A stretch of 64,000 bases of DNA, from positions 1 through 64,000 of the forward strand of contig SGPM01000043.1 in the NCBI GenBank assembly GCA_004802725.1. The letters are read 5' to 3'. A model generated the notes under the pieces. That model was not told where the DNA came from. It saw only the letters and a list, made by a program, of their open reading frames with translations, and did no database searches. The stretch is from Antrodiella citrinella (Eukaryota > Basidiomycota > Agaricomycetes > Polyporales > Steccherinaceae). Shown here piece by piece: positions 3,001-26,125 of the stretch; the stretch's first letter is position 1, and the number at the start of each line of letters is the position of its first letter. Position numbers and translations under genes: made by a program.

Positions 3001-4413
3001 CAAAACCCTGGGTGCGATTCAGAGCGACATGGAGCGCACTATCACGCCGTCATGGGTTAGCCCTGCACCTGGAAATCTTGGTGCAGCATCTCGTGGCAAG
3101 CTTAGTGCGGACGAATGGCGGACGTCTTGTACGATCAATTTCCCGATAACACTCATTCGTTTATGGGGAGGGTCTGATGCCACGGAGAGGCATCGGAGCA
3201 TGCTGCGTAACTTCATGGACCTTGTTACAGCTATCGAGATAGGAGGGATGCTGGTCATGTCCGAAGAGTTGATCGCCCAGTACAACCTGTCGTTGACGCG
3301 GTACTTGCGTAGCGCAAGGACCCTATACAAAGAGGCGGTGTTCAAGCCAAATCACCACTTGGCACTACATATTGGCCTTCAGATTCTGCCGTTCTATGGA
3401 CCTTTGCACTCAGTGCGAGCTTTTCACACCGAGCGAATGAATTACAAGCTGCAGCAAGAGAAGACCAATCGGAAATTCGGTATGTTTCCTTTCAAATTTC
3501 TCAATTCTCGCTTTTGACCAGCGTCGAGCAGGGGAGATGGAGAACACATTCATGAGACAAACTTGTCGCGCGGCAAATCTTCAAGCTCTTTTCCAAGACA
3601 ACGAAGTCAGACGTACAGCGTCGGAGATGGTGAACGCATACTGGAACATCTTCAAACGTGATTCGCGTGGCACCAGGCTTCGAGAGATGTTCCATGTCAA
3701 CAGTCGCATATCCACACGAGGGAAGGCTGGTAGACTTGGCGATCTTACATTCGCCGCCCTCATTGCATTGCTCAACAGCCGAACCGATGGGCCATTATAC
3801 CGGGATATTCGTCTGAACCAGCGCACTCCTGGTTGGCTCATGATTGACAACGGGGCTGAGATCGTATCGGACGTCTACGTGAAGGGCATCAAATATACGT
3901 CTGAGAAGACCTCCCCAGGCGACTCGTATGTGGCCTTCACCCACCCCATCTCCGGCGAGGAGCACGTTGGGAGCATCCAGTGCATATTCTCTCATACACA
4001 CAAGGTCTCCTCCGGAAAATCTTCCACGGAGCTGTTTCTTGCTGTTCAGCCACTTCTCCCTCTTGCACCCTCTGATCAAACTCTAGATCCATACCCTTAT
4101 TTTAAGCACTGCGGAGGGAAACTTGGATATGCTTGGCGTGTGGAAGAGTTTGTCGCCATCCAGGAAAATCATCTGGTATCCCATGTTGCATGGACCTTGT
4201 TCGATGCAGGTGAGTTTGGTATCAGTCAAGCAACCATTCATACGCTGCCTTTGGACCGTGTAAGTGTGAATTTTCAGTTCAAGGATCAGTACTCTTTGCC
4301 GTTCAAACGTTCATACTTTTACTTTCTTTGTTTAGATGACCCATCTTATGGATGCAGCACCTGTTGACGACGCAACTGTTCCCCATGACGACGACACTTC
4401 AGGGGAGGAATAA
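25..4413 (+). CDS. Tnp2-type (CACTA-like) transposase, 5' partial
   Basis: Transposase of the Tnp2 family, expected to cut and paste a CACTA/EnSpm-type DNA transposon in the nucleus. Exons by splice signals and frame: 25-139, 193-219, 283-909, 964-2465, 2532-2822, 2873-3479, 3532-4259 and 4336-4413; all eight join in one frame with no stop before TAA 4411-4413. The frame is open back to the window edge and no convincing start ATG was found, so the N-terminus is probably cut off. Family signatures: a C-P-S-C-Y-A-L-Y cysteine motif near 1225, the block ending VVPGPSKPS, then FWNPGVFF, FCSHCWITL, RWSELLRLPYWDP, IDSMHNHYLGLL, and downstream GGSDATERHRSML and FHTERMNYKLQ. The acidic tail is typical. 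Unlike many genomic copies it shows no frameshift or stop, so it may be recently active. TIRs and target-site duplications were not identified. Confidence 0.85.
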
Positions 4414-4589
4414 TCGAGAGATGCGGAGATATGTGATGCTGTACACAAGGATGCCATTCAATTTTTCCATGTTACGCATATGGGCGTCTGTGTGATCGAT
4501 GTCTTTCGCTTCAAAATGTCCTTTGTCGTCTCCCACCATGTCTGAAGTCTGAATCATCTTTGCTCCCTGAAACATATATATCTGTAGAG

Positions 4590-5965
4590 ATGGCTGGATG
4601 TCCATCCTCAACATTTTCACTCCCTATCTCTGCCATGATGCGCGGCGAGGAACAAGATCGCAGCAAACCGCGTCCCCAACGGGTTTTTGTGAAGGCCACA
4701 AATCCATTCCAACGTAGTCGTCAGCAAGCTACCATCAAGGAAGAATGGAGGGCCACTTATCTCAAGCGTAGACGGTTCTCTTTGCGTCACTTTGGGAGTC
4801 CTGGAGACTCCGAAAGAATGAATGTAGACCAGGGGGATCATCGGTGCGTTCCATACTACTCAGAATCGTGACACTGTAGCTCAATAGTTTTGTGATTTGC
4901 ATAGTGCACGAGCTGTAGATCAGCCACACATGCAGACTCAAACTCAGTCACGTCAGTCAGCCATGCCGCTTCGTATCACTAGTGGTCAAGAGCCCTTCGA
5001 TAGCGATATGAACCGCTCGGACGAAGAAACAGCAGCGAACAGGAACTCAGATATTCAGAATCATACCCCCTCTACTTCTTCCTCTTCTTCCACCCCCATT
5101 CAACACGCACATGGCATGCATACATGTCACTGCACCAGCAACCCATCGCCAGTGGTCGTATCTGTGGCTGGCTCTCATGCACCAAACGGGAACTCCCTTA
5201 CACAACATCATACCTCCTCTACTTCCTCCTCCTCTACTTCATCCTCCTCTTCCACCCCCATCCAACACGGACCTGGGCCGCACGCATGTCATTGCTCGTC
5301 AAGCAATGTATCGCCCATGGTCTCGTCTATGTCTGGCTCGCACGCACTGTCATCAGGAACGCAACTTAGTGAACATTGTGGGGGTGAGTTTCATGTGCGC
5401 AATGGAAAGTTCAAAGCTGATATCTGTTGTAGAACCAAGGTCGGATATGTCGCCCCTGTCAGGCAGCTCACCATGTGGAAGAGCTTCGGATGTCTCTCCC
5501 TTCCCGGCTACCACCACGACAACGTTCTCAGTCGCACCGGCAGCTGCACCTAGTCTCCCGACCCCATCCACAGTCGCACCCGTAGCATCATCTTCCACCA
5601 ATTCCTTCATCATGTCTTCTGCCAACCATCCTCTCCAAGTCCAGAAAGGCTCTCGTATGTTTATGCGCGGTTCAGGCTCTACTCGTTGGCACAAATCAGC
5701 TGGCCTGTCTCAGCTCGGGTGTCCTCCTCCCATGACCACTGAAGTGCAAATTGGAGATGTATACGTGCATACAAACATTTCGGATGGGTCGATTCAGGCT
5801 TGGGTCTGGTCAACGGTGTGCGCATGGGAGCTGGCCACGACTGGATATGTACATCCTACCTTAAGTGATCGGCTCCTCAGCTTCCGCGCCGATCTGCCTA
5901 GTTGGGTTTTGAAGCAGTCGTTCAACACGTATTTGAATAAAGCACGACGGGAGGAGTGTAGATAG
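4590..5965 (+). CDS. Ser-rich protein with paired CHC motifs, possible transposon-carried gene
   Basis: Function not recognised. Exons 4590-4843, 4905-5383 and 5433-5965 join in frame to 421 aa; introns are 61 and 49 nt with GTGCGT/ATAG and GTGAGT/TAG borders. The first ~85 residues are basic (KRRRF, a likely nuclear signal). The middle is Ser/Thr-rich with two similar modules, each made of a poly-Ser run, TPIQH, a G-P/M-H segment and then CHC. The last ~75 residues are hydrophobic/aromatic and look folded (GDVYVHTNISDGSIQAWVWS onward). It starts only 176 nt after the transposase stop on the same strand and is followed 190 nt later by a coiled-coil gene, so it may be an accessory or cargo gene of the same element. 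A host regulator next to an insertion is the alternative. Confidence 0.6.
5040..5300 (+). repeat. imperfect tandem duplication inside a coding exon
   Basis: Two similar ~120-nt blocks, each a TCC/TCT-rich stretch followed by ACCCCCATCCAACAC-like sequence and a GCATGTCA(C/T)TGC core, encode the duplicated poly-Ser/CHC module. The TCC-rich parts are microsatellite-like and probably drove the duplication. Confidence 0.65.
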
Positions 5966-6155
5966 ATTGTGGTGAAGGGATGGCGTAGAATCATTGAATA
6001 TTTATTTTTTGACAATATGTTATGACTGAGACATCTTATGACCGACATCTTACGGCCGACTGGTAAGATCGAGTGGCAAGGGTGAGTGGCGCACAGCTGA
6101 GAAGTGGTGATATGCTTCTTGGTCTGTCCCATTCACACTCACCAAGCCTCACATT

Positions 6156-6792
6156 ATGAACTCAGACGTTGAACATTTAGATTGCGAACTCTCAGTTTTG
6201 CAAGGTCGAATTGCGGCAGCTCAAGAGGACATCGACAACTATGCGCGTCAAGATCAAGCCAGAAACAATAGACTTCACAAGGAACTACAGACGTTGAAGA
6301 GTCAAAATGTGCGTCCTTCTAGTATTTTTCTGCTTCAGTTGCTGAGAGACATCTTCAGCTTGGGTTTAGAACTCAGATCGCAGAGATGGAAGACACTCTC
6401 CGTACGCAGTTGGAGGCGAACTGCCGCTCGTATATTGGCCTCAATCGAAAGATCCAGCTCACAGAACGGTCTACAGGAGAGACTTACACAGATGCTGTAA
6501 GTGTCTTCGGCCTTTGCGACGCATACTCACTGAACTTGTATCCTAGGAAGCAGCACGATCTGAAGAAGCGAAGCTCAGCAGCCAAATCGCACATTTCAAC
6601 CGCGAATTGAAAGCTGTCAGGCAGTTCAATGAGCAGCAACAGACGCGTTATTTCATACAAGACTCCGAGATCCTCAAACTTCGAGAGGCCTTGGTGAAGG
6701 CAACGAAGCGATCGGAAGCATTGCAAGAAGCTATTGCGAGGAGGGACGAGGGATTGGATGGTATCGATGCGGCGAATGGTTCAGGTGCATAG
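6156..6792 (+). CDS. small coiled-coil protein
   Basis: No family recognised. Exons 6156-6308, 6377-6496 and 6547-6792 give 172 aa in frame. The ATG at 6156 is the first in frame and gives MNSDVEHLDCEL. Almost the whole protein is charged and Gln/Glu/Lys/Arg-rich with spaced Leu/Ile (LQGRIAAAQEDID, LRTQLEANC, IAHFNRELKAVRQF), which predicts a long coiled coil; it ends in a short Gly/Ala tail. For intron 1 the acceptor at 6376 (AACTCAG) keeps the frame, while the closer TTTAG does not. It follows the Ser-rich gene on the same strand by 190 nt, so it belongs to the same compact + strand cluster as the transposase and may be a third element gene. Confidence 0.6.
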
Positions 6793-7074
6793 CCTGCTGT
6801 TGCCGGTATGTGTTTTTGTATATGAGCTGATGGCAATTAACTAATAGTCTCTTTCCTTGACCCACAGATATGCATGAACCAGCCAGAGCTGAGCGAAAGT
6901 GGCGCTATCTGGTAATATGTGCGAACGATGGGCTGATGGCGTAGATTGTACAACTTTACAAGACGCTACAAGAGATTTCAAGTATAGAGGTTAGCAATCA
7001 CGAGTTTCAAATGCCACATTCCACACTTTAGCTTTGTGAATGCACTCACGGCAGTTGATACAGCGATTCTGAGT

Positions 7075-7245
7075 TTGGCGAATGCGCCCATCGCTAAATT
7101 TGGGGATTGAGCGGCGGCGAATGCGCCCAATGCTGGATTTGGGGATTGGGCGGCGGCGAATGCGCTCATTGTTGAATTTGGGGATTGGGAGGCAGTGAAT
7201 GCGCCCAATGGGTGGCGCCGTGGCGGCGAATGCACCCATTGTTGA
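7075..7245. repeat. ~50-bp minisatellite, about 3.5 copies
   Basis: Tandem units of the form GAATGCGCCCATTG, then TGAATTTGGGGATTG, then GG(C/A)GGC(G/A)GC. Copies diverge by a few bases. The unit length is close to 51 bp, so reading frames stay open through it on both strands; these ORFs are a by-product of the repeat and I do not call a gene. Confidence 0.75.
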
Positions 7246-7319
7246 ATTTGATGATCGGGGTTCGGGCTGTTTGCTGAATTTGGTATTTGGGCGGGATTCG
7301 GAGTTCGGGCCAATTGCTG

Positions 7320-7420
7320 AATTCGGTTGGGGCGGGATTGGTAATCCTGAATTCGGGAGAGAATTCGGGAGAATTCGGAAATTCGGGAATTTCGCTTACC
7401 TCAAATTTGGTGAATTTCGG
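7320..7420. repeat. GAATTCGGGA short tandem repeats
   Basis: Repeated GAATTCGG(G/A)-type words (about eight in 100 bp) directly after the 50-bp minisatellite. They have the look of subterminal or satellite-like repeats. Confidence 0.6.
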
Positions 7421-7499
7421 AATTCTCCGATTCGATTGTTCGCCTGAGAAGGATTCAGACTCCGAGCTTCCCCGTATCTTCTTGCTTATGTTCTCTGTA

Positions 7500-7990
7500 T
7501 AACCTTTCGGTTTATACGTGGGGTCAGATCACTGAGGATACCGTGATTTGCGTCAGAAGATACTGTGACCTGTGACAATGATACCATGGCCTAGTCTGAT
7601 ACACGTGAAATCGACCAATCTTATCTGAGTTTATACCCAGACAGAAATCAGCGGCATGCTCTTAGTATGATCCCGGGTTATACCTGGCCAATGTATGGTC
7701 GGAAATTATACTGAGATCACTCCATGATTGTACGCATGATTATACCATGATAACATTGTCCGTCTGACCCCGGTTATATCCGGATTATACCCAGTACATT
7801 TGCTGATAATCATCTGAGAACGATCTTTGTATGACTCACCATATAAACAGAATTGTTATCCAGATTATACCAGGATCACATCGGGATCACTGTGGAAAAA
7901 TAACTCCAGATATAATTTTTGAAGACACATTAATCTGACTGTTACAGTACTACACGTATAATCCGGCTATAAATCATGTTTTTATCGTCT
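7500..7990. repeat. cluster of TTATAC-type interspersed short repeats
   Basis: Repeated short words such as GGTTATACC, GATTATACC(A), GTTTATACCCAG, GGTTATATCCGG, GGATCAC and GATCACT recur about a dozen times in 490 bp, in no coding frame. Dense clusters of a short motif near one end of an element resemble the subterminal repeats of CACTA transposons, which transposase binds. No clear CACTA terminal inverted repeat was found, so this is a candidate only. Confidence 0.45.
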
Positions 7991-13263: not shown

Positions 13264-16200
13264 TTACGCAACATACACAAACACGTTCATATCCGTCTCA
13301 TGCCTCCTCAAATACTCCTGCTCGACGAGCTCGTCGATCCTATCCTTGATCAGCCCGACGTTCGGCACGAAATGGTTCTTCACCGCGTCGATCGTCGCGG
13401 CCTTGAGCTGCTCATTGTGCATCTCCTTCTTGGCTTTCATGAGCCGCACGATCGCGGCGTCGAGCACGTGTTTGCGGTCGGATTCGATCAGGGTGTGCGT
13501 TTTCGTCGTTTCTTCGGCCTGTGGGGGGCGCGCGCAGCAGCGAGCAAGCGTGAGTAGATGTGTACATGTGTGGAGGGAGAGCTTACGGTTTCTTTGACTT
13601 GGATGGAGTTGATGTGCACGCGGTGCGCGGCGTCCACGAAGTCCGCGTTGAACACGAACACGTCCGTGTCCAGCACGTCCTTCCCCATCGGCTGCTTCTT
13701 CAGCACCCTCTTCTTCCCCAGCGCGAGGCTCTGGAGCGTCCGCCGGAGCTCTCCGTCCTCTGTAAACCGATAAGTATGTCAGGGAAAGCAAGGGGAGACG
13801 TGTTTTCGTATGTGTATGGGCGGATACGCACCGATCCCCGTCGTCTCCTTGATATCCGCAAACCCGATCTCCGTGTCCTCCTCGTTGAACAGCAGTAGCA
13901 CCAACGCCTGGTACAAACTGACACTCAGCTCCTTCTCGCCGCGGGCGAACCGCGCGCGGAGCGTCGCCGTGCCCAACGCGTGGTCCCAGTCGAGCTTGTG
14001 CCCTTGGTGCTTGAGCTTGTAGAACGCGGTGTACCGCGTGAGGTCGGCTTGCATCTGCAAAGGAGACAGACGTGTTAGTGGGTCGGGAGTGAGGGAGTGG
14101 AGGTATGGGTGGTGCGTACGTCGGGCGGGAGGTCCGCTTCGCTCTTGCGCGCTGTGAACGGCCAGAAACTGCGTTGGAGGACCATGACGTTGAGTTTGTG
14201 CCCCGCGGGGTCGTCGCTTGGCGTTCTCTGTGCGCGTAGTACTCCCGCACGCCTTCTCTTGAGAGCGCGAGGTCGTTGAACATGTGGTCGCCCATGCTGA
14301 ACTCGGGGTCATATTCTATCCAAGACGATGGTGAGTTATCAGACACGAAAAGAGATATGAGACGAGGACTCACGTTCCTTCAGCTTCTTCAACATCGCCT
14401 TCTCGAAATCATCGCTCGCGCTCTTCTCCAACAACAACCGCTTCGCCAACGCCTTATGATAGAACGTCCTGAACACATCCTTATCATCCGTGAACCTATA
14501 CAGCCCCAACACCTTGTCCAGCTCTCCCTCAAAGTCCTCGTCCTTCCGCCCCTGCTGGCCCTTCCGCATCGCCTTGTCCAGGTGCTTGGCGAGCATCTCC
14601 GCAGGCTTGTTCCGCCGCTGCTTGAACCCGCGCCGGAAGGAGTCGGACAGGGCGTAGGCGAATTCTTGCCGGGGCTGTTTGCTGGGCGCCGTGAGGTCGA
14701 CGAGCACCTTGCTGCTGCTGTCGTCTTCTTTCTTGACGGTTGTGGGTGGGGGCGTCTCGATGGTTTCGGCGAAGGTGTCGGAGACGAGGATGTCGGTGAA
14801 GTGTTTGTATGCGAGGAGGTTTTGTACCATGTCGTCGTCGTGTGCTTTGTCGGTGACGATCGTCTTGACTTTCGCCTGCAAGCAATGGTCAGGACGGTCG
14901 AAAGCGGAGCATCAGGAGCGGACGGGAGCGGATTCACGCACTTCAATGTGCTTGGACCACCCGTTCAAGAACACCTGCACTCCACCAACGGCCCCAAACA
15001 GCTTGAACATCCTGCCCAAATCCACCTCACTTCTCGCATTCATCAATGGCTCCATAGCTGCCCCGATCTCTTTAGCATTCGACGACATATAACAGAAACA
15101 ACAAAGACACTCACCCTCCTCCACCAACCACTGCAACCTTCCGTCCAGCAGCGCTTTATCTGCCTTCTCCCTAGCCTTGACCCAACTCACCTCCGGCATC
15201 GTCTCCTTCGCTCTCGCGATCTCCTCCTCACGTCTCCCTTGACAGTGCACAAGGAACTTCTGCGCATCCAGCTCCGTCGTCTTCTGCACCGACTCGGCGG
15301 TGTAGAACACCGCTGTGGTGGATAGGTACGTGCTTTCGAAGATCTCGGCGTATTTATTATGGTGCGAGAGCCGGGCGATGAGGGAGAGGATGGAGGGGCG
15401 TTGGGGGTGCGCGGCGTGCAACGTGCGTTCGTAGGCGACCCATTCGGTGATGCCGGATTGGAGCTTGAGGACGATGGCAGCGTTTTGGAAGATGCCGAGG
15501 GCGAATTGGTCGTAGCAGAGTGATCTGGGAAGATCGAGGTGTGAGTCTAATTTGGGAGGGGGTGTACACTGTGGTGGACGAACCGGATGGACGGTGATCC
15601 AGGAAGAGCGTAGATGTACACTCTGTCTAGATAAGCAAATAACGACTGCAACAACCCCTAGACACACGAAGAAAGTAAATGCATCAGCTCAATACCTCCT
15701 AGACCGGAACATGATGATATTTACCACTTGTCGTTCGAACCACTCGCACTTCTCCACAAACGGCTGTACCCATTCCACGCCCTGCCTCGCATCCTCCTGC
15801 AGCAACCTCGCCACTTCTCCGATACATCTCTGCACTTCTAACTTGAGGTTATCGTAGATACCTTCAGCACGGTAAGTGGCGCAGACGCGGCATGCGGCGT
15901 AGATACGCTCGTAAGATTCTGGGAGCCTATCGCCCGGAGTGAAGAGGGCGCGGAGCGTCCGCCTGAGGGTGGCGAAAGACGTGTCGAAGTGCCGATCTGA
16001 GTACTGTTGAACTGTCCGGCCAGTGTAAGTGATATGACCTGCTTGAACGGTGAAAGAGGGTACGCACTAGACGGTCCGACCAGCTGGATCCTGATCGCCA
16101 CTTTCTTCACAGATGCATTCCCCACTTTGTCGTCTGTGACCAGCCTCGACCTCGACGCCGACGCCGAGTCGAGGTCGGCATCGAGGCGGGGGGTCTTGCG

Positions 16201-16320
16201 AGGTGGTGAGCCCGACGATGTGTCTCTGGACTCGGTGATAACGGAGAACTCGGTGGGGTGGTAATCCTCGAACGCCTTCGATCCGGGGAAGGTGAGCAGG
16301 TTGAAGATGTCTTCACTCAT
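13264..16320 (-). CDS. CUL4: cullin-4, scaffold of a CRL4 ubiquitin ligase
   Basis: Scaffold that binds DDB1-type adaptors at its N-terminus and the RING protein RBX1 at its C-terminus to ubiquitinate chromatin and replication substrates. Exons (5'-3'): 16320-16068, 16012-15725, 15645-15584, 15524-15115, 15069-14942, 14875-14374, 14315-14120, 14054-13832, 13759-13587, 13519-13264. Signatures: DRVYIYALPGSPS in the cullin repeats, then KDVFRTFYHKALAKRLLL of the cullin homology domain, KELSVSLYQALVLLLFNE, and the neddylation/winged-helix end AIVRLMKAKKEM (acceptor Lys in the KAKK context) to NVFVYVA, the normal cullin C-terminus. The DDVFRF- and KPAEMLAKHLDK-like blocks fit CUL4 better than CUL1/3. 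Exon 14315-14120 contains a one-base frame break at about 14225-14245 between EYYAHRER and DDPAGHKLNVMVL; see findings. Confidence 0.93.
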
Positions 16321-16560
16321 AGCTAGCTGTCGTCGTTGTCGTAGACGTCGAAGAGAGTGACAATCGACCGACGGTGAGAGCGGATGAGTTCAAGCGGGAT
16401 GATGCAAGCAGATCGGCAGCGTCGGCCCGCTCAATTATAGCACTGTCCGCGGTCACTGCAATTTCAAAGCTCAAACGCTTTCTCGACCGCTACCACACGT
16501 CGGTCTCGCGTCTTGAAGCTTGAACATCACAACGTCTGAAATCGGATTGTACATTGACTC
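16321..16560. other. upstream region of cullin-4
   Basis: Short spacer between the cullin-4 start and the micro-exon array. Because the array reads on the same strand toward cullin-4, its downstream end lies here. No clear TATA was seen. Confidence 0.4.
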
Positions 16561-19500
16561 GCGATACTATTGGACCCCAGGCTCCTCGAGGAAACAGAAA
16601 GCTATCTACGAGCCCCCGTGAGGCCGCAGACATACAGCCACCAACTGGAAAAGAGATGAGGTTAGCAAGTCTTCCTCCTGAAGAAAGACGCGTCTACTTA
16701 CCACCTAGAACACCCCCTTCCCTCCCAGTCTGTCAGAAAAGATGGTTAGTAAGAGCACGGCTGGGGGAACTTGAACGCAATGTTGACTCACATGCGAAAG
16801 AAATGAATACCCCACGTCCTGGAAAGAGAAGAGGTGAGTAGGTTTAAGCAACTAACGACCACACGAGTACTCACCGTTTGAAACGTCTCTCCTCCTTCCA
16901 CGAACCTAGAGGAACGTATCAGCGACTCGTCAATACTTGATAATCAAGAAGTCGCTTACGTTTCGCGCCGCAAACTTAACCACAGCGTGGTAAGTAAATC
17001 AAGATGAGACGAGGTGAAAATGTCTACCTGTTAATCTGTGAAACAACAGGTTAGTACCCGCGCACTGGAAAAGAGACGAGGTTAGTAAGTCTTGATCTTG
17101 AGCAGAAGCACGTTTACTTACCACCTAGGATTCCCCATCCGCTCCCGGTAATCTAGAAAACTAGTCAACGAGAGTCTGTCGGAGACGAAGCGAAGCTACT
17201 ATATACCTTTACATGAAGCTGATCCCGAAGCTGTAAAGAAGACGAGGTCAGTACGTGCTGATTCTCGACGGATGCATGTTCACTTACCACCTGTCCCGTC
17301 CTCCTCCCTCCACGGAACCTAACCAAACAGTGAGTGAGTACGTGATAGAGAAGAATACGTAGCCACTTACCTTGGAAGCTAAAACAGACCGTAGCACGGT
17401 AAGTAGCTCAAAATGAGATCAGGTGAAGGTGCTTACCTACGGATCTGTGAAGCAAAAGGTCAGTACGACACTAGAAAGAAGAATGGGTTAGTAAGTCTTA
17501 ATCTCTAGCAAAAACACGTTTACTTACCACCTGCGACGTTCCACCCTCTCCCTAGAAACCTGCGAAAACATTCAGCTTAGTCTATGGCAGAAGCAGATTG
17601 ACTTACTGCATGTACAGTCCTCCCTCCTTGAGAATCTAAAGAAGCTATTTAGACTCGTCTATGGCGGAGGGTTATGAGACCTACCTTTTTACCTGGAAAC
17701 GGACCACAGTATGGTAAGTCATTCAACCATGAGATGAAGTGCAAGTACTCACCTGCATATCTGTGGAACAAAAAGTCAGTACCCTGCTGGAAAAGAGACG
17801 AGGTTAGTAAATCCTAATCTATAGCGAAAGCACGTCTACTTACCACTTATGTCGCCCCCTCCCCCTCCCTGAATCTAAACGAGATAGTCAGCAAGCATAT
17901 CCTTGGAGTTGGAACGACGGCACTTACCTTCGGCTGCTGTCAATGGACCACAGCATGGTAAGTAGCTCAAAATATCAGAAGGGAAAACGACTCACCTGCA
18001 CAGGAAACTGTAAACAAAACTACAGCACGGTAAGTTAATCAAAATGAGATGAAGTAGAGGTGCTCACTGATGCGTTTGTGAAGCAAAAGTCAGTACCGCG
18101 CTGGAAAAGAGACGAGGTTAGTAAGTCTTGATCTCAAGCAGAAGCGAGTTTACTTACCACCTAGAACGTCCCGCCCCCTTCCGCGAACCTGGGAGAAAGA
18201 GTGAGCGACTTGTCCCTCGCGAGAAATGACGAAGCTACTTATCTTCGACGCTGAAAATGGAGCATAGCTCGGTAAGTAGCTCAGACTATGAAAGAAAAGA
18301 ACGACTCACCTGTGCAGATACCTGTAAAAGCCACGGCGCGGTAAGTTGTTCAAGACGAGAGTAGTTGAAGGTACTCACCTGTTCATCTGTAAGAAAAACG
18401 TCAGTATCTGGAAAAGAGACGAGGTTAGTAAGTCTCAATCTCAAGCAGAAGCACGTTTACTTACCACCTATATCAACCCTCTCCCTTCCGCGAATCTAGA
18501 AGAAATAATGAACGACTCGTTACTCATGATGCATCACGAAGTCACTTACCTCCGACACCTGTAAATGGACCACAGCACGGTAAGTAGCTCAAAATATCAG
18601 AAAGAACGACTCACCTGGTGATATACCTGTAAAACCACAGCACGGTCAATAGTCCAAGACGTAATCATGTGAATGCGCTCACCTGTGTACCTGTAAAACA
18701 AAAGGTCAGTACCCTGCGGGAAATGAAGTGAGGTTAGTATGTCTTAATCCTGAGCGAAAGCGCGTTTACTTACCACCTAGACGTTCCTCCCCCACCTCTT
18801 AGAAGCCTAGACGAAAGAGTCAGCGCGGACATGAGGGAGAAGATATGAAATGACGTACCCGAAAAGCTAGAAATAAACCACAGTATGGTAAGTCGCTCAA
18901 AACGATATGAGTTGATGGTGCTTACCTGCACATCTGTGAACAAAAAGGTTAGTATCCCGCTGGAAAGGAAATGATGTTAGTAAGTCTTACTCTCCATTAA
19001 AGCGCGTTTACTTACCACCTATACGGACCCGCCCCCTTCCCGCGGACCTAGAAGACATGATTAGCGACTCATCTACAACCGGTTATGAATTCGCTTACGT
19101 TGGACGCTGCAAATGAACCACAGCATGGTAAGTAAGCTCAAAACGTTAGAGGGAAAACGACTCACCTAATCAGCAACCTGTAAACAAACACACAGCGCGG
19201 TAAGTCATTTAAGGCGAGTGTATCGAAGTGTGCTCACCTGATCATCTGTAAAAAACGTCAGTATCCACTCCTGGGAAGAGACGAGGTTAGTAAGTCTTAA
19301 TATTGAGTGAAGACATGTTCACTTACCACCTACGCCATTCCACCCCCTTCCCCGGACCTAGAAAACACGATCAGGTTATCTTCAACATATACCGATGGAT
19401 GTGCTTACCTTCGACGCTGCAAATGAACCACAGCACGGTAAGTAGCTCAAAACATCATAGAGAAGAACGACTCACCGGTGCAGAAACCTGTCAACAAAAC

Positions 19501-20256
19501 CACAGCACGGTCAGTCGTTCAATATGAGATGGATCGAAGGGACTCACCTGATCATCCAGTCACGTACCTGGGAAGAGATGCGGTTAGTATGTCTACATCT
19601 TGAGTGAAAGCGCGTTTACTTACCGTCTACGCCGTTCCCTCTCCCCTCAGAAACCTAGACGAAAGAGTCAGCGCGGGCGTGAGAAAGGAGATCTGAAGTC
19701 ACATACCCGCAAAGCTGAAAATGAACCAACGCATGGTAAGTCGTTCAAAATGATATGAAGGGGAGGTGCTCACCTGTGTATCTGTGAACAAAATGTTAGT
19801 ATCCAGCTGGAAAGGAAATGAGGTTAGTAAGTCTTGATCTCGAGCGGAAGCGCGTTTACTTACCACCTGGAACATTTCGCCCCCTCCCAGAAATCTAGAC
19901 GAGCGAGTCAGTGATTCGTCTATGATGGAAGAAGGCATGATCTCGCTTACCTTCTCACCTGAAAATGGTCCACAGCACGGTAAGTAGCTCACAATATGAG
20001 AAGGGAAAGTGACTCACCTGATGAAGAACCTGCAAAAAACCACAGTACGATAAGTAGTTCAAGATGTAATGTGACGAAGGCACTCACCTGGGTGATGAAG
20101 AACCTGTAAAAACCACAGCACGGTCAGCAATTCAAGATGCAATGAGGTGAAAGTACTTACCTGTGCGGAACCTAGGATGAAGCAATCGTCAGTAAGTCTG
20201 AACGACGAACTTGCGGAAACACTTACCGTTGTGGGTCCTTGTGTACGCGTCTTCAT
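16560..20256 (-). repeat. tandem array of micro-exons and mini-introns (about 12 units of ~170-410 bp)
   Basis: On the - strand almost every 55-65 nt looks like a complete minimal intron: donor GTAAGT/GTGAGT, branch site ACTTACTAAC or CTGAC, pyrimidine tract, and CCAG/ACAG. Between them are exon-like pieces of mostly 8, 11-12, 28-31 and 33 nt. The plus-strand copy of the branch site (GTTAGTAAGTC or close) recurs at about 16661, 17081, 17249, 17487, 17803, 18117, 18423, 18733, 18976, 19286, 19583 and 19823, so most units are about 300-315 bp, with some of about 240 bp. The direction is set by the pyrimidine tracts (CTCGTCTCTTTTCCAG), which are purine-rich on +. Exon pieces are conserved in size but not as an open frame, so a protein-coding role for the whole array is not supported. 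Confidence 0.8.
19633..20256 (-). other. candidate start and first exons of the array transcript
   Basis: At the upstream end of the array an ATG at 20256 opens a 30-nt exon (20256-20227, MKTRTQGPTT), followed by a 55-nt intron with ACTTACTGAC branch and CATCCTAG end. Next come an 11-nt exon (20171-20161), a 57-nt intron, a 16-nt exon (20103-20088), a 12-nt exon and 8- and 28-nt exons. Joined, these stay open for about 35 codons and, in the simplest model, reach a stop at a GGCGTAG in the next unit (about 57 aa). This could be a very short coding gene with a long spliced 3' UTR, or a spliced noncoding RNA with a chance ORF. Confidence 0.35.
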
Positions 20257-23200
20257 GGGCCTCGGACTTATTGCTCGAGTCTTCCGCTACTTGCTCGAGC
20301 CTAGACTAGATGTCTAGAAGGTCAGACGGAATTCTGGAAACGTGAGCAAGTGTTCTGGAAGACGGGAGAAGCACGGGCGTACTCAGTGTTGTCGGTGCTG
20401 ACCGGACTCGCCGTCACGATCTTGACTGCTCAGTCCGGACTTCCAGAAATCCGGCGACGGCGGGCAGCGTCCGCGCACGGTCACTATGAATTCTAGAAGA
20501 TAAGCACAAAGACAAAGAAACACACGAAGATGAGGTTGGAGGCTGGCTAGTCTGCGACACGAACGCATACAAGCGGGGCAAATATCGATCCAGTCGGAGG
20601 GTGTCAACGATCAAGTCAACGGCGCCCCGTAAACCCAGTCCATCCTTGGCTCCCTCTCAACACCGCATCTCAACGACTCGGAAACATCTCCGATGGAAGA
20701 AGAGGCGAAGAAGGAAGGGTAGAAGAGAAGAGACACTCGCCTAGTGTATGATCTCAAAGCCTCTCATCCCTTCGCGGCGGAGACAGCTTGCGCTCAAAGC
20801 GGCTCGTGTACGAAGTGTCGCTGTGGCGTCCCATAGCTCAGCGTGTTGGAGCAGTGTATGGTAGATGTGTAGATTCGAAGGTTCGAAGATGGCAGTAGAA
20901 GACTTCGAAGTCGGGCAATAGAACCGTGAGTGATGGACGTTCGAGAAAAGGAAGGTGGGGCGCGGGGAATGCAGAAGCTAGCAGCTTATATGTCCATGCT
21001 CATTCGGGGCTGACACGGTCAGAAATATGTTCTGAGGCTGGTATATGTATGTTGGAAGCTGAGATGCTAACAATGAGTAGAGAAAACGCGTCACAGATGC
21101 GGCGGACGCGTCGTTTTTCAGTGGGGTGAGGCTGGTGCGGGATGTCTCAAAGTGTGCTTCTTACCCGAGGAGCACAGAAATAGCACATGGTGCAAAGTCG
21201 TGTGTAGTACTTACTAGTGTTTCTGAGTAGTTGTGAGGGATGAATAGTAGTACTAGTCCCGACCCCAGTTCTGCTCCTCATGACTATGCCACTGTGCGGC
21301 GCAAACAACATGCCAGTGTTGCCATAACTCGACTTTGTTGAGCCACGATGAACCAGTTCAGATTTCTCGAAAGCCACAGAGAGCCGTGGTGGCACTATTG
21401 GAGAATACCATGTATTGAAAAGGTACAGCATCAGCGGGTATGTGAACAAACAAAGTAGCGGCCATAGATGTGGGCGCGCGTGTACTCCCTTCCCTTCCGT
21501 TCTGTAGCCAAGCTGATCTTGACAGATCTTGGCGTGCTCCCGGCGTATGACGTAGTTGATATCTTCAACACAACAATCCGCTTATCCGACGGGACCAGTT
21601 CATCCTCTAAAATCCTGAAATTCAGTGACGGCGTTGCATTTCAAGACGGCCAGACTGAGCAAAAGACGTCCTGAAGAGACTTTTACATTATAGAGACTTC
21701 CTATGATATGACACTCGAAGTACGAACGCCAGTATCTCTGTCGCGAACATGAGAACAAACACACTCCTTGGGTAACACGATACGTGACGTAGCGAGCTCG
21801 AGTTCTATGTAAGCCTAATCCGTCGGACGTTGTACTTCACACATACCATCAGACGGATGAGGATGACAAGAGATCTCCAGGGATGCAGTCAAACCAGGGA
21901 TCAGCCGTCACAGATAGCAAGCGGAGCGACCAAGGAGCGACGAAAACTAACGTAGCAAGGTGGCGTGGGGCTCGCGGGCCGCTCGTGCTTGTGACCCGGA
22001 CACAAAGAACGCTGAACGTCGGACGCACATCGGCACGGTTCAGAAGCCAGACCACGTTGCCCTGATCTGTAACGCCGCACGCTACATTCCTCCAGGTAAG
22101 TGTGGAAGTGGGCCATAATTGTCCGCCACCGATTTGCGGCACCGCGCCAAGACAAGACATGCGCGAGAATGTGCATCGGGGACGCAGCAGCATACGAGCG
22201 AACGGACAATGTCCATGGGGTAAGTAAACGCTGTCAAAGAGGATCACAAGTCACCGGCACCAGTAAATATGTCCAGCTCTAGAGCCTAAAGAAATACAAA
22301 AATGCGCACCAGGTCTGCCTGATCTTTGGAAGAGAGAAGTCGCGTGCGTTCGGAGCAAAGAGAAGCCTGTCCTCCCCTGCAGTTTTGCCGACCACGGGTC
22401 ACTTTTCTCCGCCGATGGGCTGAGAAGATGGTACGTGCAGAAAGAAGATGGATCATTCGCAATGCCCCGTTGTGAACAATTCCGCCCGGATAGCGGTTCA
22501 TGAAAGGGTGTTGGTTGCTTCCAGGCGTTCAGTGATATGGTGTTTGGAAGTGGCGGTCGTAAAGGACCAGGATGACGTGTGCAGTTGTAACACATTGCAG
22601 AGCAGACTGGGAGATCCACACGCCTCGAGGCTGGTGTGGTGGCAGCTGTAGACGTTGCGGCTGAGGTTCCGGGCCACGAGCAGCGGACTTTCTAGAGAAC
22701 GCCACCACGGAGCGTTAGACGTTTTGTGCAGCAGTGAGAAAGCCTTGGCCATATGCCAAGACTAGAACGTCGAAAAGCTAGATGTGAGGCCGGATGAAGC
22801 AGAGACTCAGATAGAGCTGGACACAGAAAACATAACATACCTATAGTTCAGCGACGTAGTAGTGATAGCGACTGGTTGGTAAGGCCTAAGGGTTCAATTT
22901 GGGTGCAGTTCGAGTGGCAGGAAAAGTAATTGGGAAACGTAGGTTTTTGCGGAGCGCCACGCCGATGTTTCACAGGTGGTTGACAGATTTGGTGTTCGGG
23001 AGAGCGATGAACAACGACGCCGCAGGGGTGTCAAACGTGTCCGAGCAGCCGGTAACTGTCTCTCTCGACAGTGTGCGGTAAAATGTTTACGTCCATCGTC
23101 ACCGTTCACCGAGAGGATATTTTTGCTGCTGCGCTGCGACGGCGATGGCTGGAAGCGCAGTACTTGGAAGATCCAGGTCGGTAGGTACGTGGCACAGAAC

Positions 23201-23967: not shown

Positions 23968-26125
23968 ATGGGCGCTTGCTTTTCGGCCGGAGGTCTCGAG
24001 GTTAGCGAGGAGGACAAGAGGCTGCATCGAGAGGCAGAGAAGAGCCTGAAGGAGGTGCGTGTTCCATTTTCTCTATGTGTCATACTGGACAACCTCTCAT
24101 GAGTACCTTAGGCAAAGAGCAAGATGGGGCACCAGGTCAAGGTGCGGATTTTGCGTGCTATCTTCTCCTAGTGAGATAAACTCAGCATATATGCGTATCA
24201 TAGGTCCTCCTGCTTGGTTCTGGAGACTCGGGAAAGTCTACCGTCTTGAAGCAGATGCGTCTCATCCACCGAGTCCCCTTCTCCACACAAGAGATTGAGT
24301 CGTATCGACAACTCGTGTTCAACAACCTCACGCATGGCATGAAGTACCTTATCGACTCTATGGAAGACATGGGCATCTCATTGTCGGAGGCATATGGGGA
24401 GTATGTGCAGCTCATTGACGATGCGACGGATCTCCGAGACGGACAGCCATTCCCTCCGGAGTATCTCGCGCCTCTGCGGAAGCTCTGGGAGGACCCGTCG
24501 GTACAAAAGGCTTGGGATCGAGGGAACGAAGCTGCTTTACCGGAAAAGTATGTCACTCTTTACTCGGTGCATGCCGCCAATGATCTATCTATGCTGACCT
24601 AATACCCTCTGTGCAGTCTGATCTACTACTTCTCGGATTTGGACCGGCTGTTCGATTCAGAGTATACCCCTAATGAACAAGACATCGTACACGCGCGGGC
24701 TCGGACAATTGGTATCACGGAAACAATCTTCCACCTCCGAGATCATGAAATGCTTATGGTCGACGTTGGTGGCCAGAAGAGTGAACGACGGAAGTGGATC
24801 CACTGCTTCCAAGATGTAACGAGTATTTTGTTCCTGGTCAGCTTGAGTGGGTACGACCAGTGCCTGATTGAAGACAAGGACGCGGTATGTTTCCTGAGTT
24901 TCTGTGCGACGTCCAGAAAACTAACGGCGGATTACTCAGAATCAAATGCAAGACGCTATGACAATCTGGGATTCAATATGTCATTCACAATGGTTCAAAA
25001 ATACATCCATAGTGAGTTCAGATGATTGTGAGATTTCACAGAGCATCTCGTGACTTACTGTTCGTTCTCAGATTCTGTTCCTGAACAAGAATGACCTGTT
25101 CGAACGCAAGATTGAGCACTCGGATATAAAGAACTATTTCCCCGTATGTATTCCTCGGCTGTGAAATGTGTTGCGTTCTCATCTTCGCTTCGGCGTGCAG
25201 GATTACGATGGTGAGGCTGCTGATGCCAGAGCAGGTCGAGACTACTTCAAGAAGCGATTCGCCAGACTGGCCCAGAAAGCAAACCAGAAAGAGCGAGAGA
25301 TTTACATCCAGTACGTCGCATTCTGACAGTCCTTTTCACATGCCTCGCTGAATTGACACTGATCCGGTGACCTAAGTACCACAACTGCTACTGACACTGG
25401 AATGCTGCGAGTTGTAATGGCCGCTGTTGAAGGTGCGTTTTGATTGCATTCTCACGTCGGCGTATTGACACTGACATATGTTTCACAGAGTGAGTCTTTC
25501 TTCCCATTGTTTCCCCCACACCCCACACCGTTTTTGTTATACCTGTTCCGTCTCAACAACACATGGCTCAATGTTACGGTCCGTGTACCACGTTCTTCAG
25601 CATTATTCTAAGACAAGATCTGGAGAATGCTGCTCTGCTATAACGCCTGCCTTTCGGAGCCTTCCTTTGACTATTTATACAGTCATCTTATACTCCCGTG
25701 CTATCTTCTTTGATATCATGTGTGTCCGATATTCCCATTGCTTTCATCTCTTCTCCAGGCTTGTACTACCATCCGTTTCTTGCATATGTCTATAATCTCA
25801 ATATGTCTCATACTCATGGTTCTTTTCATTGGTTACCTCTTCGCGCCGCTCTCCTCCTCCATCCTCCGGGTACTTTTGCAATTCAAACTCGCTGCCCACG
25901 ACACGTTATGCTCTCTCAAATTTCGATTTGATGAAAACTGCACTACAATATTTGCGTATGTCCCTCAATCCTACCAAACATGCGCGATTGATCTGCTCTT
26001 CAACCCAACCTGGGACTACCAATTGTCTAGTACGATCATCAGTAGGAATGTACGTGATCGACCTAGCATGCTACGAAACGTTTGCTAACGCGAGATCCTT
26101 CCAGATTCGCCAGATCATGTTGTAG
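23968..26125 (+). CDS. heterotrimeric G protein alpha subunit (with a 1-nt exon)
   Basis: GTP-binding switch of a seven-helix receptor pathway at the plasma membrane. Exons: 23968-24054, 24112-24141, 24204-24547, 24617-24884, 24940-25011, 25072-25143, 25201-25310, 25377-25432, 25489 (single A), 26031-26049, 26105-26125; total 1080 nt, 359 aa, the usual G-alpha size. MGACFS at the N-terminus gives Gly2 myristoylation and Cys4 palmitoylation sites. P-loop GSGDSGKST at residues 44-52 (normally GAGESGKS), switch [11 protein letters not shown] with catalytic Arg181, switch II DVGGQ with Gln207, NKND at 272-275, and TATDT before the last helix. The C-terminal helix reads AVED-TIISRNIRQIML. The Asp is assembled from three exons (G, A, T). 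Without the 1-nt exon the frame stops at AVEE and the receptor-binding helix is lost. The last long intron is 541 nt, unlike the others (55-70 nt). No Cys at position -4, so not a pertussis-toxin-sensitive type. Confidence 0.93.
25489..25489 (+). other. single-nucleotide exon in the G-alpha gene
   Basis: The A at 25489 is flanked by an acceptor (ACTGACATATGTTTCACAG, with a CTGAC branch) and a donor (GTGAGTC). Including this one base brings the frame into phase with the downstream exon at 26031 and creates the Asp conserved in G-alpha C-terminal helices. Confidence 0.7.

Follow-up and report, generated by a model that had tools for sequence, protein, structure and literature searches.

What may be maintained in a locus that consists for the most part of intron-like pieces? 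The question is raised by contig SGPM01000043.1 of the basidiomycete Antrodiella citrinella (GenBank assembly GCA_004802725.1), of which positions 1 to 64,000 of the forward strand, referred to below as the window, were analysed. An original prediction had described an array of tiny introns and micro-exons on the minus strand, and the array was recovered at the same place and on the same strand. From 20256 to 16645, this strand can be parsed into 46 introns in series (about 50 had been expected), 47-62 nucleotides (nt) long with a median of 57 and a sum of 2591 nt. When the first acceptor is used, the 45 internal exons measure 8-37 nt and total 991 nt; they are preceded by a first piece of 30 nt. 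The whole array (16645..20256, minus strand) is made up of 46 introns and 46 upstream or internal exons, counted to the final acceptor, and the share of intron is about 72%.

The best explanation of this layout, as read from the sequence, is that a unit of intron plus microexon would have been duplicated in tandem to form the locus. The tandem arrangement proposed originally holds, with a count of 13 units, some of them reduced, and one short extra in place of about 12. Tandem Repeats Finder reports a period of 307 nt at 17914-18793 and of 73 nt at 20019-20163. The elements of a unit follow each other as D exon, intron I1, A exon, I2, B exon, I3, C exon and I4. The D exon is 31 nt long in 9 of 13 units, rich in purine and mostly terminated by AGGTG; the TAG that had been noticed at exon ends before a donor is present in 8 of 13 D exons and stands right before the final three bases rather than at the very end. 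I1 measures 56-57 nt in 12 of 13 cases (first acceptor used) and follows the pattern GTAAGTAAAC..TACTAAC..CAG. The A exon is 8 nt long, or about 33 nt when the first of two acceptors is taken. The B exon, absent from some units, has 12 nt in 6/6, the C exon 8-9 nt and the I4 intron 49-56 nt, so that the commonest exon lengths of the array are 8, 12, 31 and 33-34. The two tandem 3' splice sites, each with its own branch site, had been announced for all units at a distance of 20-26 nt; both are intact in 8 of 13 units, at a spacing of 21-29 nt. Many exons start with GT or finish with CAG beside a GTRAGY donor, and most possess their own separate acceptor and donor.

The splice signals of these introns are kept better than the exons that they delimit, a conclusion that is strongly supported by the comparison of units within this one array and that agrees with the original prediction. 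GT-AG is intact in 44 of 46 introns, the donor conforms to GTRAGY in 40 of 46, and a yTnAy branch site is found in 42 of the 43 class-aligned introns, the three introns outside the classes being uncounted. The signals are nevertheless not all perfect, as had been claimed: one donor reads ATAAGT (18242) and one acceptor GCGG (16968). In the sequence, the array displays what is expected of U2-type spliceosomal introns, namely a GT donor, yTnAy, YAG and a size usual for the organism. Mean pairwise identity reaches 0.906 in the signal columns (donor, branch and acceptor, n=52); it is 0.615 in the remaining columns of the introns (n=153) and 0.560 in those of exons B, C and D (n=51). The rank test of signal columns gives P 4e-13 against the remaining intron columns and 1e-11 against the exon columns; the columns of all groups are not independent of each other. 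Exons and intron interiors taken together range from 38 to 80%. The I4 introns illustrate the point best. Their interiors (n=12) have an identity of 0.377, compared to 0.339 (maximum 0.381) in shuffled and realigned sequence, and are about saturated, while GT-AG and the yTnAy branch site are each kept in 11 of 12. As is looked for in spliced long non-coding RNAs, the constraint on splice sites thus exceeds that on exons, here between array units only.

Neutral decay was simulated along trees of 12 units constructed from non-signal columns, three trees being obtained by column choice, and the decay of GT and AG was followed. The observed number of intact GT-AG introns is 23 of 24; the simulated means are 2.6, 4.1 and 7.9 for the three trees, and 23 intact introns were reached in 0 of 5000 simulations under each of them. 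The introns were sought by their signals, which biases the parse; the positions compared are nonetheless homologous between units. Gene conversion would mimic the pattern only if it were confined to the signals.

A loose automatic chain finder, which requires a GTRNGN donor, a yTnAy branch site and YAG, links 26 introns in a row on the minus strand at 18251-20226. Twenty stretches of 10 kb from elsewhere in the genome served as comparison: the longest chain is 3 in the 16 arbitrary ones and 10 in the four chosen for clustered pattern hits. As these stretches represent only about 0.7% of the genome, further arrays are possible. A stricter finder does not count the CTTAC branch sites of I2 and I3 and for this reason stops at a chain of 3 in the array; in 20 first-order randomised windows it gives chains of 1-2. 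The motif pair GTRAGT..YAG..GTRAGT is not enriched genome-wide (349+331 occurrences vs 386+406 for the reversed control). A gene on the plus strand was considered and rejected: 27 GTRAGY donors are found there, yet acceptors with branch site and pyrimidine tract number 10, compared to 45 on the minus strand. The loose finder also chains six intron-like pieces on the plus strand of the array at 17958-18404, since GTRAGY, when reversed, reads as the branch-site form RCTYAC, and the conserved ACTTACC as GGTAAGT.

Beyond the statement that the splice signals are selected, we infer what follows. The array may specify a spliced non-coding RNA maintained for its splicing, a reading to which, from the sequence, we give an even chance. 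As the joined exons do not conserve their sequence, splicing would be the selected step. RNA polymerase II would transcribe the minus strand, perhaps from a promoter near 20.99 kb, where a TATAAG stretch, noticed by eye, lies ahead of a pyrimidine-rich region (20981..20998, minus strand). The introns would be removed one by one, up to 46 per transcript, and the completeness of splicing would decide the fate of the transcript, that is, its stability, export or turnover. With 46 introns in series, full splicing would become a steep switch on per-intron efficiency. A weaker extension is an action in cis on the cullin-4-like gene located about 0.3 kb downstream, and such an effect appears unlikely. 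A more specific and only tentative proposal is a gene whose product would be the splicing event itself, the 46 strong introns, maintained for splicing alone, serving as a device that loads spliceosomes or senses splicing capacity and controls its own RNA or the cullin-4-like gene; its yield would fall as the efficiency to the power 46.

Papers are cited here by their PubMed Central (PMC) numbers and are represented by excerpts. In the genes tested in Cryptococcus, a basidiomycete too, the majority of introns increase the accumulation of mRNA, and their effect is cumulative and post-transcriptional (PMC3744415). According to the same excerpt, two introns act negatively and nuclear run-on detects unchanged transcription, so the intron effect is on RNA. 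In mouse, the splicing of enhancer-associated long intergenic non-coding RNAs (lincRNAs) contributes to their cis effect (PMC7035876). Taken together, these excerpts favour an RNA whose splicing sets its own fate, and the Cryptococcus results make the cis effect weaker. If the array is transcribed, it would be a natural example, and an extreme one, of splicing being under selection while the joined product is not, and would offer one locus in which to ask whether the act of splicing has its own function in fungi and how the spliceosome copes with adjacent introns 8 nt apart. It could also provide a natural assay of splicing efficiency.

Several observations weigh against an RNA maintained for its splicing. 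The array is known from the DNA of a single genome. Two of the 46 introns are broken, one at GT and one at AG, and decay may have begun. The interiors of I1, I2 and I3 are well kept (0.64, 0.65 and 0.80, above the shuffled level), which may reflect selection beyond the core signals or homogenisation. A spliced retrocopy, sought with the first 701 of 1082 nt as query, was not found in the genome, the 16 matches being all single array exons. The cis part is disfavoured by the post-transcriptional nature of the intron effect in Cryptococcus, as far as the excerpt of PMC3744415 goes. The remaining points concern the exons and speak for the main rival, which we regard as fairly unlikely: a protein gene that evolves fast, contains microexons and is alternatively spliced, or its relic. 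With C skipped and the short A used, such a gene would encode a repeat of about 17 residues of the type V-R-G-R-G-x-x-V-x-G-D-x-Q-V-x-x-Q. The standard units then amount to 51 nt (D31+A8+B12) or 39 nt (D31+A8), multiples of three as coding predicts. Frame 0 of the D exon contains a stop in 1 of 13 exons, compared to 7 and 5 in the other frames, and one of 12 class-wise splice models presents a stop deficit at a nominal P of 0.048. Genes with microexons also occur in the same genome, as described below for a DUF6533-type locus (L034) and for locus L035. The array is nevertheless without convincing coding signal. Even in the C-skipped, short-A model, 7 of the 235 codons of the best frame are stops, where shuffled exons have a median of 8 (P 0.34). 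The longest stretch without a stop measures 84 codons in this model, compared to 73 after shuffling (P 0.30), and none of the 12 models stands out for length. Dynamic programming over the listed acceptor choices yields a longest open path of 92 codons, the median for shuffled exons being 102 (at least 92 in 204 of 300 shuffles), and free exon skipping one of 274 vs 269 (reached by 123 of 300 shuffles). Codon-position identity in the nine D exons of 31 nt displays no periodicity (P 0.75). The 84-residue stretch has no candidate homologue in the protein collection, by a search that requires shared 5-residue words; a cullin fragment used as query of the same kind of search obtained no score, probably since candidates are length-limited. 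The V at exon starts and the Q at exon ends are also expected from the splice-site context. Within this exon parse, no open frame runs through the spliced exons as in a micro-exon gene, and exon lengths are not mostly multiples of three, only some combinations summing to one. A coding gene is for these reasons not supported, and is kept, in itself or as a relic, as the main rival.

The position of the array suggests another possibility: it could belong to the cullin-4-like gene as one complex intron of great length or as its 5' leader. Stepwise removal of the array, through recursive or nested splicing of the kind described for stwintrons, would let a transcript that starts near 20.96 kb reach the cullin gene. 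The two lie on the same strand, the final acceptor of the array being about 325 nt ahead of the cullin ATG, and with ordinary introns of 50-62 nt the removal of a 3.6-kb intron in one step is unlikely. The exon ends, with GT at the start and CAG at the end beside GTRAGY, permit nested or zero-length-exon pathways on paper. This explanation is quite unlikely given that the cullin gene has, by eye, its own pyrimidine-rich leader and a TATAAT-like word, and that most exons of the array carry a distinct acceptor and donor of their own. The introns could on the other hand be the product, excised introns or stalled spliceosomes giving stable intron RNA, small RNAs or a splicing-factor sink. The conservation of the I1-I3 interiors well above the shuffled level would fit such a role, as would the GTGCTGTGG-like word described below, present in 16 of 18 I2/I3 introns, and in Cryptococcus a part in keeping transposons in check is attributed to introns (excerpt of PMC5851062). 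The absence of any Rfam family at gathering score in the window, of a covarying fold in 17 of 18 I2/I3 introns and of marked folding (mean z score -0.44) renders it very unlikely, and 46 introns are few beside the introns of the whole genome. An ordinary satellite whose splice-like words are no better kept than the rest had been named at the outset as what would overturn the prediction, and the array does not answer to this description. A neutral satellite with its origin in an intron-bearing gene fragment would account for the tandem, drifting units and for the two introns with a broken GT or AG; positions do not all diverge alike, and the failure of every neutral simulation to match the observed retention, in addition to the column identities, leaves this origin extremely improbable.

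The splicing of ordinary genes of the same genome provides a reference for the RNA whose splicing would be selected. In chaperonin (PF00118) genes, 13 introns were inferred from 18 gaps between matches; five gaps were left out because of their low score, although in one of them the top candidate has a GTGAGT donor. These introns are 50-62 nt long (n=13), similar to the 47-62 nt of the array, and their donors are of the GTRAGY form in only 2 of 13, GTACGT being the commonest (5 of 13). The difference from the 40 of 46 GTRAGY donors of the array has a Fisher P of 2.7e-6, to be read with the array introns being mutually related. Two further loci contain microexons. At locus L034 (G000:C36:20000-29999), positions 4000-7800 of the minus strand hold two similar gene copies side by side; in each, GTGAGT-type splice sites flank an exon-like piece of 10 nt, and a piece of one copy matches Pfam DUF6533. 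Gene content marks the host as a fungus, and the DUF6533 family points to agaricomycetes. Locus L035 (G000:C45:5000-14999) accommodates at 4942-5735 a chain of ten intron-like pieces, the longest in the comparison stretches, with exon-like pieces of 10, 12 and 16 nt and many GTRAGY donors; it looks like a membrane-protein gene, and the single piece tested was without Pfam match. The introns of these microexon loci measure about 54-65 nt. Both loci share with the array exon-like pieces of 10-16 nt between introns of such length and, in L035, the many GTRAGY donors, but they form chains of 3 and 10 intron-like pieces rather than tandem units, and the DUF6533 gene is protein-coding. To judge from these sequences, the organism can apparently splice exons of 10-16 nt, and strong donors may go together with microexons generally in this fungus.

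The exons and introns of the array were also inspected for features of RNA. The D exon drifts in sequence (0.575 identity), while 11-13 of the 14 bases of its core are purines in 13 of 13 exons, and 34 of the 44 departures in majority-purine columns replace purine by purine. Purine-rich exon sequence can act as splicing enhancer. Since the D exon keeps its purine content and not its sequence, its resemblance to such an enhancer fits. A GTGCTGTGG-like word is located between branch site and acceptor of the I2/I3 introns, exact in 6 of 18 and with at most two changes in 16 of 18; CTGTGG is found at this place in 12 of 18. The word sits where a pyrimidine tract is expected, for example at 18559-18614 on the minus strand. 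Partial homogenisation and a binding site are the candidate explanations. A consensus fold supported by covariation was sought in the I2/I3 introns, 17 of the 18 being used, and was not found, which leaves the word without a structural explanation. Single introns have folding z scores down to -2.8 (n=46). Mirtrons are not indicated, the mean folding score giving no sign of stable hairpins and the I2/I3 introns no covarying fold. ACTTACC, which we take to be the 5' end of U1, is conserved in 14 of 18 I2/I3 introns. Mimicry of U1 was dropped, as GTRAGY reversed gives RCTYAC, a form present in chaperonin introns too. The U1 model has no match in this genome and none in the controls either, which makes it no test; the U2 model has three matches in this genome. 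The word GTAAGTAAACGC, with which several I1 introns start, occurs once on the plus strand, at 22220-22231, at a distance of about 2 kb from where the array starts.

No description of a comparable locus was found in the open-access literature, subscription papers being largely outside this scope, in agreement with the original remark that no such gene family was known; microexon genes do occur in the same genome, as stated above. Micro-exon genes (MEGs), small nucleolar RNA (snoRNA) hosts, stwintrons and spliced lincRNAs each agree with the array in one property and not in all. In snoRNA host ('inside-out') genes, non-coding exons drift and the introns matter; an intron of 47-62 nt offers little room for a snoRNA. 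The array resembles these hosts by its drifting exons and differs by having no Rfam family in the window, for which reason a snoRNA host gene was rejected. The MEGs of Schistosoma (excerpt of PMC10526429) have runs of very short exons as well; they specify secreted proteins and comprise 10-20 exons, mostly multiples of three, with introns of 0.1-5 kb, whereas the array has no frame detectably kept and 46 introns of about 57 nt. The stwintrons and proliferating introns of Hypoxylaceae (excerpt of PMC8469720) are comparable in the multiplication of fungal introns and would be so in the complex stepwise excision, but are dispersed through genes, whereas the array is in tandem at one locus with no other copy by genome DNA search. 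Enhancer-associated spliced lincRNAs (excerpt of PMC7035876) have in common with it that splicing appears to be kept, that exon sequence is free and that a cis effect on a neighbour is possible; they are multi-exonic transcripts of animals, whereas the array, seen in sequence only, packs 46 introns into 3.6 kb, has exons as short as 8 nt and would stem from tandem duplication.

The DNA search of the 30-Mb assembly for other copies returned at least eight matches, all inside the array. Viral contigs, scanned with one 16-mer, gave eight matches that were taken as chance. Read along the minus strand, the array begins with a leader (19895..20256) composed of the 30-nt first exon piece, which starts with ATG, five introns and exons of 11, 16, 12 and 8 nt; this leader is partly a 73-nt tandem of intron and exon. 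Unit 1 (19655..19894) comprises D of 31 nt, I1 with two 3' splice sites, A, I2, C and I4, without B. Unit 2 (19358..19654) has D, I1 deprived of its second 3' splice site, A of 20 nt, I2, B of 12 nt, I3, C of 8 nt and I4. Unit 3 (19048..19357) is a full D-A-B-C unit with two 3' splice sites. These are also found in unit 4 (18807..19047), with D of 32 nt and without B, and in unit 5 (18496..18806), which is full and has D of 33 nt. Unit 6 (18189..18495) is full and carries the broken I4 donor; unit 7 (17875..18188), full too, has lost the second 3' splice site (CACAA). Unit 8 (17636..17874) has two 3' splice sites and lacks B. It is followed by the short extra, a D-type exon of 29 nt and an intron of 47 nt (17560..17635), and by unit 9 (17319..17559), with D of 32 nt, two 3' splice sites and no B. 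Unit 10 (17153..17318) is shortened and without second 3' splice site. Unit 11 (16906..17152) retains two 3' splice sites, lacks B, and has the I2 donor GTAGAC in addition to the broken acceptor. The array ends with unit 12 (16730..16905), shortened and diverged, and unit 13 (16645..16729), reduced to D of 28 nt and the last intron.

The downstream neighbour on the same strand is the cullin-4-like gene (14339..16320), of which two downstream exon pieces match Pfam Cullin (14339-15688); for one piece, cullin-4A and 4B are the best among solved structures. Its presumed first exon (ATG at 16320) is without Pfam match and was joined to the gene by position. Upstream, in divergent orientation, a G-protein alpha subunit gene lies on the plus strand (23968..25025), two exon pieces of which match PF00503. 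A short open reading frame, MGRHSDTSYTSRFERKLSPPRRDERL (20754-20834, minus strand), lies in the presumed leader, after the TATAAG word and ahead of the array. Further away, an open frame on the plus strand (948-2531) matches Transposase_21 and likely belongs to a DNA transposon.

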